Shown here: one piece after another, positions 1,586-5,163 of the stretch
Layout of the letters: each line of letters starts with the position of its first letter
Numbering within the stretch: position 1 is the first letter of the stretch
Assembly (NCBI GenBank): GCA_021781255.1
Contig: JAJXXG010001283.1
Coordinates: 1-5,163 of the forward strand
DNA: 5,163 nucleotides
Origin: Acidobacteriota bacterium
Lineage (GTDB): Bacteria; Acidobacteriota; Terriglobia; Terriglobales; Acidobacteriaceae
Direction: 5' to 3'
Notes under the pieces: model-generated
Database searches by the model: none
What the model saw: the letters and a program-made list of their open reading frames with translations, nothing else
What the model was told of the DNA's origin: nothing
Translations under genes and position numbers: made by a program

Positions 1586-1685
1586 GGCGGAGGGCTTGTA
1601 ACAGGAGCACGACCCCACCGGCTTCCGAAGAGCTCAGATGGATGTCTTGATGAAGGGCGCTTGCTTGCTCGTGCCGAAAAAGCCA

Positions 1686-1752
1686 GGCAAATGACCGGGG
1701 TTTGCCCCCCTGAATGCATTTGCCCGGACAAGAACAGCTTTGCCCGGGCAAA
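1686..1752. repeat. Cluster of TTTGCCC direct and inverted repeats
   Basis: TTTGCCC occurs at 1701-1707, 1719-1725 and 1739-1745, with starts 18 and 20 bp apart. Inverted copies are GGCAAA (1686-1691) and GGGCAAA (1746-1752). The last pair forms a perfect 14-bp palindrome at 1739-1752. On the minus strand alternative stems are possible, including a 9-bp stem between 1744-1752 and 1719-1727. The cluster lies 30-96 bp after the porin stop codon. It may protect or end that transcript, but no T-run follows. Confidence 0.6.
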
Positions 1753-1781
1753 CACAGCCATGACGTGCGTTAAGACGGCAA

Positions 1782-3122
1782 TCAGAATACGAACCGAGCG
1801 AGCAGATACAGCGTGTTATTGTCACTCGCAGAGCGTGAGTCGACCCCGTCATAATTCGTTGACCCGCCGTTAAAGCGCGAGTAGGCGGTGTACTGTGCGG
1901 CCAGGTCCAGGTTCTGAGTCGGCCAGTAAGAAACATTGGTGATGAAGCCGACACTTCTGGGGCTGCCGTTGGCGCTGCCCGAGATTGAAGCCGGAGCATA
2001 CAACACGGGATCCGCGGTTCCCGAGGTCATGAATGCTCCAAAGGCTCCTGACAATCGATTTCCGTAGTGGTACTCGACGTTCGCATTGCCCGTATTCAGG
2101 TGATGCCGGCTGAAGGCTGCCGCTTCCGAGCCCGCAGTCGCAACGAGAGACGAGTTCTCACGAACGTACGTGCCGCGAACGGAAAGCACGTCTTTGCCGA
2201 AAATTCGGTCGTACTGAAAATCCGGCCCAAAGTCCGTATAACCATCCTCAGGCCCGGTAATCGCTCCAGGTGTCGATTTCACGTGCATTCCGTAGGCGCC
2301 GATCTCCCATTGGTTCGTGCGGCCGTTCTCCTGCCACGCAAGACGCCAGTAGGGCGCTACGCCGCGGATGTTAATGTTCGAGGGTGTTCCGTCGGTGGGC
2401 TGAGGACTGCCAATGTGATCGGTGCGATAAATCGTCCCGTCGAAATACAGGTGATCATTCCACATGGTGAAAGCACCGATGCCGGCAACATCCTGTGCCA
2501 GAGAGCCATTGATGATCGTCGAGGCAGTGGGGGTAGGAGCCGAATCACTGACGATGAAGGGATAGCCCCATGCCGGGGTACTGTTCCAGAGATCCTCCAC
2601 GGTCGGATTGTTATTCAAGGTAAGGCCGTACACCCAATCCTTGCCGTTTACCTTTTTCTTGTTGGCGTAACGGATATCGGTGTTGTCCGAGGTGAAGTGA
2701 TCATCTTGTGCGCTATAGGTTACCTGGAGAAAACTGCCGATATTCGAGGTCCAGGCGCCGGCAAGAAAGAACGATATGTCCTGGGGAAACTCGAAGTTCC
2801 CGTTCTGCGTGTTGGGCTGGGGCGCGTTGGTGCTTGTAAACGAGGTTTCAAACCATGCTCCCAGAGGGAGCGTTTGGAGCATGTCCAGGCCCGAACGCCG
2901 CTTGTCGCCCGTTGCCTCGATGCTGGTGCCTTTCGATCTATCCGTGTATCCCAGAAGTTTGAATAGGCGGCCGGCAGGGTTTAATTCTGGCGGCGTAGTG
3001 TGGCAGCCGCTGCACGGCAAGCCGGTTTGGCGCGCATAGCTGGGGAGCGCCGATGCTCTAGGAGCAAAAGCCAGCGACAGAGCACATAAAATGAACACAC
3101 TCGGTATGGTGTAACTTTTCAT
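1782..3122 (-). CDS. Cyc2-like fused monoheme cytochrome-porin, outer membrane
   Basis: The 446-residue product starts with a signal peptide (hydrophobic core 8-20, likely cleavage after ASA at 23-25). A very short cytochrome segment follows: ARQTG (30-34), the heme site CSGCH (37-41), then PELNPAGRLFKLLGY (45-59). From about residue 70 to the end the sequence is made of alternating amphipathic, aromatic-rich strands with polar loops, ending in LLARFVF. A terminal Phe is typical of outer-membrane beta-barrels folded by BAM. One heme at the very N-terminus followed by a barrel of this size is the architecture of Cyc2, the outer-membrane iron oxidase. The spacing of ARQTG, CxxCH and GR.FK..GY also fits my memory of that family. 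Function as an iron oxidase is not shown; other fused cytochrome-porins are uncharacterised. ATG at 3120-3122 is preferred; an in-frame TTG directly upstream (3123-3125) would add one residue. Confidence 0.88.
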   Translation of the reverse strand: MKSYTIPSVFILCALSLAFAPRASALPSYARQTGLPCSGCHTTPPELNPAGRLFKLLGYTDRSKGTSIEATGDKRRSGLDMLQTLPLGAWFETSFTSTNAPQPNTQNGNFEFPQDISFFLAGAWTSNIGSFLQVTYSAQDDHFTSDNTDIRYANKKKVNGKDWVYGLTLNNNPTVEDLWNSTPAWGYPFIVSDSAPTPTASTIINGSLAQDVAGIGAFTMWNDHLYFDGTIYRTDHIGSPQPTDGTPSNINIRGVAPYWRLAWQENGRTNQWEIGAYGMHVKSTPGAITGPEDGYTDFGPDFQYDRIFGKDVLSVRGTYVRENSSLVATAGSEAAAFSRHHLNTGNANVEYHYGNRLSGAFGAFMTSGTADPVLYAPASISGSANGSPRSVGFITNVSYWPTQNLDLAAQYTAYSRFNGGSTNYDGVDSRSASDNNTLYLLARFVF

Positions 3123-3132
3123 CAATTTCCTT

Positions 3133-3138
3133 CCTCCT
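3133..3138 (-). promoter_or_regulatory. Ribosome binding site AGGAGG of the cytochrome-porin gene
   Basis: On the minus strand AGGAGG ends 10 nt before the ATG at 3122 and 7 nt before the alternative TTG at 3125. GGAAGG lies between and may also pair with 16S rRNA. The strong site, after a 160-bp gap, suggests independent and efficient translation rather than coupling to the upstream lipoprotein gene. Confidence 0.8.
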
Positions 3139-3153
3139 AAAAAACGTCATACA

Positions 3154-3167
3154 GCATGATGTCATGC
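3154..3167. promoter_or_regulatory. Candidate operator palindrome upstream of the cytochrome-porin gene
   Basis: GCATGA (3154-3159) and TCATGC (3162-3167) form 6-bp inverted arms with a 2-bp centre, 32 bp before the start codon. GTCAT also repeats directly at 3146-3150 and 3161-3165. The position fits a transcription-factor site near a promoter, but I see no good -35/-10 pair in the gap; TATGAC on the minus strand nearby is the nearest -10-like sequence. The regulator is unknown. Confidence 0.3.
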
Positions 3168-3285
3168 GATTTCGTAGCGGCATTCAGGTCAGAGCGTCGC
3201 ATCAGCGCTCGACTCCGCGGTATGATTCGTCGGCGGCAGAATGGTACTTGCCGATTCCCCTCGTGTCGACAACGAATCTGAAGAT

Positions 3286-4017
3286 TTATTTGTTTGCATA
3301 CACCACCCCGGCGGCGCGATAGGGGGGCTCGGATACGAGGCGGATATATGCAATCAATGCATGGGTATCGGCCTTTGTCAGCGTGCCGCCGTAAGACGGC
3401 ATGAGTGCCGAGCGATTCAGGGCAGGACCGCCGTGGTTGATAATCGCCGTCAATTCGGCATCGCTGAGTTTGTTGTACACATCTCCGTTGCTGAAAGAAT
3501 GCGGCTTCACGGCCAGGTTGTCGTAATTGGAGACCTGCTCCACCGTAGACTCCTGATCGTGGCAGCGTGAGCAGTAGGCTTTGCGAAGCTCGTATCCGCG
3601 CTGCTCCTCGTACCCCGCAGCCAATTCTGTCACCTTAAGATCGAATATCTTTCCGGCAGAATCCGCAGACGTAGCAGTTACTTCATAGCGGCCTGGTGAA
3701 CCGCTGAGGGTGACGTTCGTGGTGGCTTGCCCGCTGGAATCGGTCAGTACCTTTTGGGGGTCAAAGCTCAACCCCGCGGGCCCGGCAAACTGTACCAGTG
3801 CGCCGGTCACCGCATTCCCGTCCTTGTCGTTCACCTGAACGACCAACGGTTGCGGGAGCGCGGTGCCTGGGCTTCCCAACTGTTTGTCGCCGCTCGACTC
3901 GACTATCGCCGAACCGAAGGCCGTAGCATGAAGCGCGGGCGTCTTCGCCGCGCGCCGCCCGCATCCTGAGCTCATCGCCATCACTGCGATCCCGGCAATC
4001 CAAAGCTTCCGTTTCAT
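3286..4017 (-). CDS. Predicted lipoprotein with Big-1-like Ig domain and C-terminal monoheme cytochrome c
   Basis: The product has 243 residues. The N-terminus has Lys/Arg at 2-4, a hydrophobic stretch (5-15) and MSSGC with Cys19 as the likely lipidated residue; the lipobox is imperfect because -3 is Ser. Residues about 30-131 look like a bacterial Ig-like (Big-1/invasin) domain: PLVVQVNDKDGNAVTGALVQF (57-77), a TDSSGQAT turn (92-99) and GRYEVTATS (109-117). Residues about 135-230 form a class I cytochrome c domain with CSRCH (149-153) and a likely Met axial ligand in LMPSYGG (205-211). Its ATG overlaps the stop of the multiheme cytochrome gene (ATGA), implying translational coupling and a shared transcript. 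The Ig domain probably acts as a spacer or docking module holding the heme away from the membrane. Which membrane it is anchored to cannot be told. Confidence 0.88.
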   Translation of the reverse strand: MKRKLWIAGIAVMAMSSGCGRRAAKTPALHATAFGSAIVESSGDKQLGSPGTALPQPLVVQVNDKDGNAVTGALVQFAGPAGLSFDPQKVLTDSSGQATTNVTLSGSPGRYEVTATSADSAGKIFDLKVTELAAGYEEQRGYELRKAYCSRCHDQESTVEQVSNYDNLAVKPHSFSNGDVYNKLSDAELTAIINHGGPALNRSALMPSYGGTLTKADTHALIAYIRLVSEPPYRAAGVVYANK

Positions 4018-5163
4018 TTCTTCGCCCCCCGAACTCCGGAAGTCTTCTGCATCATGAGAAACGCCGTAAGAGCGCGGGCGTCATCATCGCTGATCCCTTG
4101 GTTCGGTTCCATCGTGCCCGGGCGCAATGCCTGGGGATTCTTGAGCCAGTGATAGATCCAGGCCGCTGTGAGCCGGGAGCCAACGTCAGTGAGAACCGGC
4201 CCGATGTAGCCCTTATCCTGCTGCGAATTCACCATATGGCAGGACTGGCAGGCGTACTTCGAATAGAAGAGCTGCCGCCCCTGCTCAACCAGCGCCGTCG
4301 GATATCCGCTCAAGGGCATCGAGTCGCGATCGAATTCCGGTGTCTGGTACACCGTCATGATGTAGTCCGTCAACTCTGCGCTCTCGCTGTCGGTCAGATT
4401 GAACTTGGGCATGCGCCGGATTAGGGCGGGCCGCAGCGTGTTGGGGTTCTTCAGGAAGGAATCCAGCCACTGCCTCTGTACGGAGCTTCCTTCCCAGCTC
4501 AGATCCGGGGCCATATCTCCGCCGTGCCCGTTGATGCGGTGGCAGGCGAGGCAATTCATCTGCGTCATGAGTTCCCCGGCGTGGCCCGCCGGCCGGTAGT
4601 TCGAAGTCCGCGGCGACGCTACTTGCAGCCGCGGCGGCAGACTGAAACTACGATCGGTAAGAGAGAGCAGCGCCGTAGTCAGGTCATCGATCTGCGCCGG
4701 CGTGAAAGTGTACTGCGGCATCTTCAGATCGGACCCAAACGAGTGGGGCCGGCCGATCTTCGCGGCGAGAAAATCCGGCAGCGTGTGCGGCATTCCTGGC
4801 GTGAAGACAATCTGAGATGTTGGCAGGCTGCCAATGCGGCTTAATTCAGGTGCAAAGTTCTCCGGTTTACGAACGCCGCGAATCTGGTGGCATACGGCGC
4901 ACCCGTACTCTGTCACCAGAAGTTTTCCGTGCGCCACCTGTTGCGGTGTAGCCGGCTCAAGATGCACGTTCGTGAGGAGGTCGCTATTTGTCTGGCTCAG
5001 CAGAAATCCTGAGAGCACCGTTAACTGCTGGTTGGTCCAGCGGTATTGCGGCATTGTGGTGCCGGGGTCGTAGGCTTGCGGGTCCCGCAGCCATGCCTGA
5101 AGCCATTTCGCGTCGACCTTGCTGCCGATGGCTGTCAGTTCCGGACCGATGTTTCCACCAACC
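4014..5163 (-). CDS. Multiheme c-type cytochrome of tandem class I domains, 5' end outside window
   Basis: The open frame continues through the right edge of the window with no stop, so the start lies outside; 382 codons are visible. Three heme sites are present: CAVCH (4887-4901), CLACH (4539-4553) and CQSCH (4236-4250). Each is followed by a typical class I domain with a likely Met ligand: KMPQY, RRMPKF and GTMEPNQG. The edge-proximal sequence (GPELTAIGSKVDAKWLQAWL, then TTMPQYRW) is the C-terminal part of a further domain whose CxxCH must lie just outside. The protein therefore has at least four monoheme domains about 100 residues apart. The methionine at 5052-5054 is an internal residue, not the start. 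It is probably periplasmic, but its targeting signal is not visible. It likely relays electrons between an inner-membrane complex and the downstream cytochromes. I recognise no named gene. Confidence 0.9.
   Translation of the reverse strand, partial: VGGNIGPELTAIGSKVDAKWLQAWLRDPQAYDPGTTMPQYRWTNQQLTVLSGFLLSQTNSDLLTNVHLEPATPQQVAHGKLLVTEYGCAVCHQIRGVRKPENFAPELSRIGSLPTSQIVFTPGMPHTLPDFLAAKIGRPHSFGSDLKMPQYTFTPAQIDDLTTALLSLTDRSFSLPPRLQVASPRTSNYRPAGHAGELMTQMNCLACHRINGHGGDMAPDLSWEGSSVQRQWLDSFLKNPNTLRPALIRRMPKFNLTDSESAELTDYIMTVYQTPEFDRDSMPLSGYPTALVEQGRQLFYSKYACQSCHMVNSQQDKGYIGPVLTDVGSRLTAAWIYHWLKNPQALRPGTMEPNQGISDDDARALTAFLMMQKTSGVRGAKK

Follow-up and report, generated by a model that had tools for sequence, protein, structure and literature searches.

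The Cyc2 proteins characterised so far oxidise Fe(II) (PMC8406198), and Cyc2-type porins have been recorded in Acidobacteriota MAGs (PMC9671151, PMC10367259, PMC11312239), including one assigned to Cyc2 cluster 3 (PMC9671151), the role of which is termed uncertain (PMC8406198, PMC13264449). In Mtr/Pcc complexes, a multiheme cytochrome is inserted into a separate large barrel. Anammox bacteria have complexes that combine an NAD(P) oxidoreductase with hexa/octaheme cytochrome c, to which the Rieske proteins Kuste4569 (9rk4) and Kustd1480 (9rk3) belong (PMC12954380).

The window analysed here, 5,163 nucleotides of an Acidobacteriota contig (JAJXXG010001283.1), was described in a sequence-only reading as encoding a complete three-gene electron wire across the cell envelope. 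Our analysis suggests that it would be the end of an eight-gene, quinone-linked respiratory module that more probably exports than imports electrons through a cytochrome-porin. We give this reading as a whole roughly even odds (about 0.5); the Rieske, cytochrome b, GltD-like and cupredoxin genes lie outside the window and are predicted from those of its relatives.

Results

The three cytochrome genes lie in a row on one strand, as the sequence-only reading had stated; all three ORFs, and all features below, are on the minus strand. Its count of at least five visible hemes also agrees with ours (3+1+1 = 5 CXXCH). At the right end of the window, positions 4014..5162 encode the last 382 aa of an octaheme cytochrome c, in an ORF that is open at the edge, the gene continuing beyond it. 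The fragment matches Pfam Cytochrom_C (E 7e-28) and is 77% identical to residues 305-686 of the 686-aa octaheme protein of the related locus L002. It contains three of the eight hemes of the octaheme protein, at sites read from the sequence as CAVCH (4887..4901), CLACH (4539..4553) and CQSCH (4236..4250), and in an alignment of 10 relatives all eight CXXCH motifs are invariant. The protein had been taken for a periplasmic cytochrome. It is better read as a c-type subunit of a Rieske/cytochrome b complex than as a free periplasmic protein, because the full-length sequences of relatives show a hydrophobic stretch at the N-terminus and the gene lies downstream of the Rieske/cytochrome b genes.

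The octaheme stop and the start of the next gene share four bases, ATGA (4014..4017), an overlap of the same length as in L002. This second gene (3286..4017) encodes a 243-aa lipoprotein-like Ig-cytochrome with a Big_1 Ig domain (E 9e-9) and a Cytochrome_CBB3 domain (E 3.5e-8) in Pfam, and one heme site, CSRCH (3559..3573), read from the sequence. Its N-terminus holds a lipobox-like SSGC, and a Cys follows the hydrophobic N-terminus in most of the orthologues listed.

The third gene (1782..3122) encodes a 446-aa fused monoheme cytochrome-porin. We preferred its ATG at 3122 over the 1782-3125 reading because AGGAGG, a likely ribosome-binding site (3133..3138), precedes it. The gene follows the Ig-cytochrome gene after a gap of 163 bp, and its co-transcription with the upstream genes is therefore putative. 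A promoter and terminator scan of 1600-4100 gave nothing above the level of shuffles, and neither Rfam nor a tRNA scan matched anything in the window.

The window porin had no Pfam, NCBIfam or PDB sequence match. An AlphaFold2 model built on 79 sequences (the window, 69 of the 240 listed homologues, and the porins of 9 of 23 loci) predicts a 16-strand beta-barrel (1785..2864) and an N-terminal helix at residues 6-19, with the heme domain at low confidence. The fold comparison rests on this model; an earlier alignment of 14 sequences, which omitted L002, L005, L008, L013, L014, L017, L018, L020 and L022, had given a pLDDT of 50, and the L021 porin, which has a broken frame, was omitted from the alignment. 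Foldseek returned TM-scores of 0.35-0.50 by query length among the 50 matches listed, and VIA-align gave closer numbers than these, with its top rows tied; both comparisons suggest that the modelled barrel has the fold of general porins. The family is large, with 7803 of 8000 scored candidates matching at E<=0.001, and is without Pfam or NCBIfam matches. Exactly one CXXCH was found in all 120 close homologues listed, and in a more distant set, which may include fragments, it is missing in 9 of 120 proteins.

Judged on the published features of Cyc2 (PMC8406198), the cytochrome-porin resembles that family, its activity being predicted. As in Cyc2, a single CXXCH (CSGCH, 3000..3014, read from the sequence) lies near the N-terminus of the porin, PXL stands four residues after it (CH-TTP-PEL in the window, and so placed in each of the 116 listed close homologues, out of 120, that have the upstream pattern), and the protein is a 16-strand porin, by prediction here, of more than 365 aa. 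The sequence-only reading did not know the trio as a named system; the architecture of its cytochrome-porin is a known, Cyc2-like one, and the distinction it drew from Mtr/Pcc complexes holds, given 16 predicted strands and a single fused heme in the window porin. Two features differ from Cyc2. The signature AXPXFAR[QK][TY] is not matched, as the window has ALPSYARQT (3024..3050) with F replaced by Y, and the gene neighbours here encode a Rieske/cytochrome b complex. Among the listed close homologues (120), Y stands at the position of the motif F in 113 and F in 3, and 4 are without the pattern, so that the PXFAR motif screen described for the Cyc2 tree (PMC8406198) would lose 113 of the 120 through one F-to-Y change.

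Locus surveys, which covered Acidobacteriota, revealed a one-strand cluster of eight genes, all present, on 18 of 23 related contigs (with the porins of L017 and L018 scored as present though they run off the contig); three of the other five are cut by contig ends. The cluster encodes a plastocyanin-like protein, a GltD-like Fe-S flavoprotein, a Rieske protein, a split cytochrome b, the octaheme cytochrome, the Ig-cytochrome and the cytochrome-porin. In L002, adjacent genes overlap or lie at most 24 bp apart as far as the Ig-cytochrome gene, cytochrome b is split between a 262-aa gene (Pfam Cytochrome_B) and a 234-aa gene (Cytochrom_B_C), and the GltD-like protein has the Pfam domains Pyr_redox_2, Fer4_20 and Fer4. 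L008 and L010 have the porin and cupredoxin only, and their MAGs are without a strong octaheme match. The genes for cytochrome b, a Rieske protein and a quinol oxidoreductase that had been sought beyond the right edge of the window are thus present upstream in the clusters of its relatives.

A free-standing three-gene wire was rejected, as the cluster in relatives is larger. The proposed route across the envelope and the co-function of the genes gain support from their staying together in relatives, whereas the idea that three genes form the complete set gives way to the eight-gene cluster. The three-gene order recurs in 10 of the 18 complete clusters and is broken in the other 8, where the porin comes first, but all 18 keep the three genes linked.

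A reverse test on a phylum sample found a cytochrome-porin near 20 of 22 octaheme loci, the remaining two ending at contig edges, versus 2 of 26 other, lower-scoring Rieske/cytochrome b-type loci, several of them on short contigs (Fisher p 3e-9); the octaheme profile was made from porin-linked loci, 8 of its 10 rows being among the 22 (without those rows, 12 of 14), and the 640-bit octaheme cut was chosen after a gap in the scores was seen. In 8 of the 26 lower-scoring loci GltD is present and the porin absent, so NAD(P)-type complexes also occur porin-free, and L109 has a porin and no GltD match. In L094, L096 and L105-L107, GltD is 72-78% identical to that of L002 and the porin only 25-27%, indicating that different porins occupy one position. 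Six loci have a same-family porin adjoining a different Rieske gene; five of them, those on a long enough contig, also have a cytochrome b/multiheme c fusion. Viewed from the porin side, 14 of 40 contexts (from 77 porin matches) have GltD, Rieske, cytochrome b and octaheme genes. Further porin contexts came from 16 of 20 regions (L139, L140, L141 and L147 omitted), and the ORF labelled Rieske/cupredoxin in L134 and L142 is one on the opposite strand that covers the tblastn match.

Discussion

Computation gave the heme sites, the predicted barrel and, for relatives, gene content and linkage; the genes upstream of the window, protein contacts, locations, substrate, direction and any NAD(P)H formation are what we infer. 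At the core of the module would be a Rieske/cytochrome b complex of b6f-like type, with the octaheme protein as its c-type subunit and a GltD-like NAD(P)-type Fe-S flavoprotein on the cytoplasmic side; a plastocyanin-like carrier, the Ig-cytochrome lipoprotein and the Cyc2-like monoheme cytochrome-porin would complete it. Electrons would flow from quinol through the Rieske and octaheme proteins to the cupredoxin and/or the Ig-cytochrome, and on to the heme plug of the outer-membrane porin, which could pass them to a small dissolved acceptor, e.g. Fe(III), entering the pore. For the other electron of the quinol, a route through cytochrome b and the flavoprotein to NAD(P) is possible.

The encoding of a heme-bearing outer-membrane pore with a membrane electron-transfer complex suggests a compact, uncharacterised form of electron exchange with the surroundings in soil Acidobacteria. 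A large porin family without Pfam or NCBIfam matches is now tied to a specific quinone-linked complex, providing a concrete circuit for testing and a candidate mechanism by which a phylum very common in soil could carry out iron redox chemistry. More speculatively, and with the odds well against it, many soil Acidobacteria might carry out bifurcating quinol oxidation: one electron would leave through the monoheme porin for extracellular Fe(III) and the other would reduce NAD(P)+, NAD(P)H formation being driven by an acceptor outside the cell. In some genomes, inward electrons would then be handled by a sister cytochrome-oxidase cluster.

The module appears to be a quinone-pool-linked outer-membrane electron conduit in which export is more likely than import: we would put export slightly ahead of all else together, uptake a clear second, and any other direction at a small remainder. 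A RuBisCO family match was found in only 7 of 23 genomes (draft MAGs) and none in the other 16, which was counted for export, as was the Fe(III) reduction reported for Acidobacteria (PMC8790237). For Acidithiobacillus, it has been proposed that Cyc2 has a reducing role in which a bc1 complex feeds it (PMC8790237), and this too was counted for export.

Uptake is the strongest alternative, credible although the less probable. In that case dissolved Fe(II) would be oxidised at the porin, as by Cyc2, and the module would act as an uphill branch driving electrons through the Rieske/cytochrome b complex to quinone and NAD(P), like the Acidithiobacillus pet operon. The Cyc2-like architecture favours this, as characterised Cyc2 oxidises Fe(II), and so do the cupredoxin adjoining the porin and two RuBisCO matches above 450 bits. 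A downhill branch could be provided in 7 of the 23 genomes, where another porin, a diheme cytochrome c and COX1 form one cluster resembling the rus operon (PMC10654088); a COX2-like gene was seen in six of the seven and none in L145. Gene-by-gene Pfam searches were made on L150, where the cupredoxin-like protein matches only C-terminal accessory domains and no copper domain. A COX1 label on L135 proved false, a PF00115 search finding no match on that contig. Five of the seven genomes also have a strong octaheme match; uptake may therefore have a porin of its own, the COX1-linked one, which was counted for export by the module. Against uptake, no oxidase-linked porin was found in the fragmentary MAGs of the two closest relatives of the window (G001 and G002), RuBisCO matches are lacking in most genomes, and one Acidithiobacillus Cyc2 is described as serving both branches (PMC10654088), so that one porin per branch would not be expected.

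It is improbable that the porin and cytochromes aid the quinol complex or solute uptake without extracellular electrons, e.g. in redox-gated porin transport. The general-porin fold and the low confidence of the modelled heme domain would suit such a role, but the single heme site is constant among the listed close homologues and is also kept in the porins that replace this one in the same slot. That the porin is a chance neighbour of a Rieske/cytochrome b operon is very improbable: the 163-bp gap, the two gene orders and the 26 of 40 porin contexts without the module would allow it, but the contrast of 20/22 with 2/26, the link preserved in both orders and the replacement by other cytochrome-porins in the same slot argue against it.

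Returning to the quinone-linked export module, its parts are of known kinds and their combination is apparently undescribed, no description having been found in the literature searched. NCBIfam scores of cytochrome b against ExtP (259.3 bits), the cytochrome b C part against ExtQ (50.3) and the octaheme protein against ExtS (95.1) fall below the cut-offs of 290, 150 and 100, and the cluster is not placed in the Ext selenite/tellurite operon. Acidithiobacillus rus/pet likewise has a Cyc2-type porin with copper proteins, and bc1 genes for the uphill branch, but there cyc2 lies with cytochrome oxidase genes and bc1 in a separate operon (PMC10654088), whereas here the porin is in the bc-type cluster; the rus arrangement of cyc2 with cyc1, cup and cox is not repeated, as no cox gene is among the eight module genes and cox-linked porins form separate loci. 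In the porin-cytochrome clusters referred to as 'PCC4', outer-membrane conduit genes also adjoin cytochrome b and Rieske genes (petB/petC), but those encode multiheme porin-cytochrome complexes (PMC13264449), in contrast to the fused monoheme porin here. The closest solved Rieske proteins were 9rk4 and 9rk3, and the Kuenenia complexes (Kustd1480-1485 and Kuste4569-4574), as described in PMC12954380, share a split b6f-like cytochrome b (found in L002, helices uncounted), an NAD(P) oxidoreductase with Fe-S clusters (matched in L002 by domains, its activity predicted) and a hexa/octaheme c that replaces cytochrome f (eight CXXCH in 10 aligned sequences here). To this plan, the Acidobacteriota cluster adds a cupredoxin, an Ig-cytochrome and an outer-membrane cytochrome-porin.

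Genes of the window

Three open reading frames occupy the minus strand in this region of the window, according to the ORF listing. These are the C-terminal part of a multiheme cytochrome (4014-5162), which has three heme sites and is cut by the window edge, a gene whose Ig-like and cytochrome c domains are assigned by Pfam (3286-4017), and, leftmost, a cytochrome-porin with one CXXCH, starting at an ATG at 3122 with AGGAGG ahead of it. The octaheme and Ig-cytochrome genes share four bases, and a 163-bp gap precedes the porin start. Pfam, NCBIfam and PDB sequence searches returned no family match for the porin. None of its 120 listed close homologues (P0001-P0120) has a precomputed Pfam domain, and their source names, where shown, read "hypothetical protein". 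On the opposite strand, an HbpS-like gene (PF03928; 350-1150, plus strand; E 1.7e-11) apparently lies outside the module.

The cluster in close relatives

A contig scan with the window porin recovered 23 loci at 57-73% identity, all from Acidobacteriota MAGs as judged by their titles. With the proteins of L002, a reference relative, used to call module genes, 18 of the 23 encode a complete one-strand set of eight genes: a plastocyanin-like protein, a GltD-like flavoprotein, a Rieske protein, cytochrome b in N- and C-terminal parts, octaheme cytochrome c, Ig-cytochrome and cytochrome-porin. The sequence-only reading had proposed the three window genes as a possible trans-envelope conduit and had named conservation of their order in relatives as a check; their linkage was borne out, but a fixed order was not, as the porin is last, as in the window, in 10 complete clusters and first in 8. 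The cytochrome b and Rieske genes it suggested looking for are present in these 18 clusters, the window itself ending inside the octaheme gene. Contig ends cut the cluster in L013, L020 and L022; L008 and L010 encode only porin and cupredoxin, although sequence is present on both sides. Pfam and NCBIfam matches back the module parts of L002, whose GltD-like protein has NfnA-type and formate-dehydrogenase-type subunits as its nearest solved chains. The L021 porin gene (10001-11288) has its frame broken by in-frame stops, which may reflect a pseudogene or a fault in the assembly.

Ten aligned octaheme sequences, with identities down to 35%, share all eight heme sites without change. Strong octaheme matches were found in 21 of the 23 source genomes; the match in G008 was weak (best 7e-15), and a search of G010 gave none.

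Survey of the phylum

At E<=1e-60, the octaheme profile A3 matched 48 places in 47 of 247 genomes, and a score gap from 643.9 to 387.3 bits split 22 upper from 26 lower loci. A cytochrome-porin lies 0.7-5 kb away in 20/22 upper loci, the other two (L103, L104) ending at contig edges, versus 2/26 lower loci (L070, L084), some of which are on short contigs (Fisher p 3e-9); A3 was built from porin-linked loci, and without the eight upper loci that are its own rows the porin count is 12/14. Eight of the 26 lower loci encode GltD without porin, and L109 has a porin with no GltD match, so the porin tracks the octaheme-type cluster and not every NAD(P)-type complex. L070, L084, L113 and L115-L121 are Rieske/cytochrome b loci with GltD in which the multiheme c gene is shorter or more distant, and most of them have no cytochrome-porin. 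Five loci match L002 at 72-78% identity in their core genes but carry a porin of a different type (25-27%); judged by these identities, the porin slot is kept and the porin itself replaced or fast-changed.

The porin profile A1 matched 77 places in 60 of the 247 sampled Acidobacteriota genomes, distant matches being mostly restricted to the N-terminal heme region. Among the 40 contexts examined, from the 44 highest-scoring places, a motif scan found the heme-porin signature in 38, and GltD, Rieske, cytochrome b and octaheme genes were nearby in 14.

Other partners of the porin family

A second porin paralogue adjoins a different Rieske gene in G001, G002, G004, G005, G011 and G018 (L060, L061, L134-L137). 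Five of these loci also encode a cytochrome b fused to a c part that holds 4 or 5 CXXCH, the exception being the G005 locus (L137), whose contig stops short; the L135 fusion was checked by Pfam. In G008, G010, G013, G016, G020, G021 and G023, a distant porin belongs to a cluster that also encodes COX1 and a diheme cytochrome c (L142, L144, L145, L146, L149, L150, L151). A COX2-like gene was seen in six of the seven clusters, and most have cupredoxin-like matches close by; Pfam was run on one of them, L150. Strong octaheme matches occur in five of the seven genomes, all but G008 and G010. L143 (2776-8457) encodes a porin, two tandem cupredoxin-like genes, a hexaheme and a monoheme cytochrome, and no Rieske or cytochrome b gene was seen beside this group.

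Direction of electron flow

Linkage, heme content and the predicted barrel are established computationally. The gene clusters suggest that the porin would exchange electrons with the Rieske complex via the cupredoxin or the Ig-cytochrome. All 23 source genomes encode a heme-copper oxidase, and 7 of 23 the RuBisCO large-chain family (five at 213-237 bits), absences being weak evidence because these are draft MAGs. Export from quinol is favoured by the separate oxidase-linked porins and the scarcity of RuBisCO, and Fe(II) oxidation by the known biochemistry of Cyc2. For Acidithiobacillus, it has been proposed that Cyc2 works in reverse, as an exporter (PMC8790237).

Comparison with known systems

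The solved structures closest to the L002 Rieske protein are 9rk4, Kuste4569 (Kustd4569 in the paper's table), and 9rk3, Kustd1480 (PMC12954380). PCC4 is a known case of conduit genes beside petB/petC (PMC13264449), and the Acidobacteriota porin/diheme cytochrome c/COX1 clusters resemble the rus operon (PMC10654088). No description of a cluster joining a fused porin, a cupredoxin and an NAD(P)-type Rieske/cytochrome b complex was found in a literature search that took in few subscription papers. MAG surveys have already recorded Cyc2 homologues of Acidobacteriota (PMC9671151, PMC10367259, PMC11312239), and a similarity network Acidobacteria homologues of Leptospirillum Cyc572. The window porin has every published Cyc2 feature tested except the F of AXPXFAR and is for that reason not filed as Cyc2, but it probably works like Cyc2.
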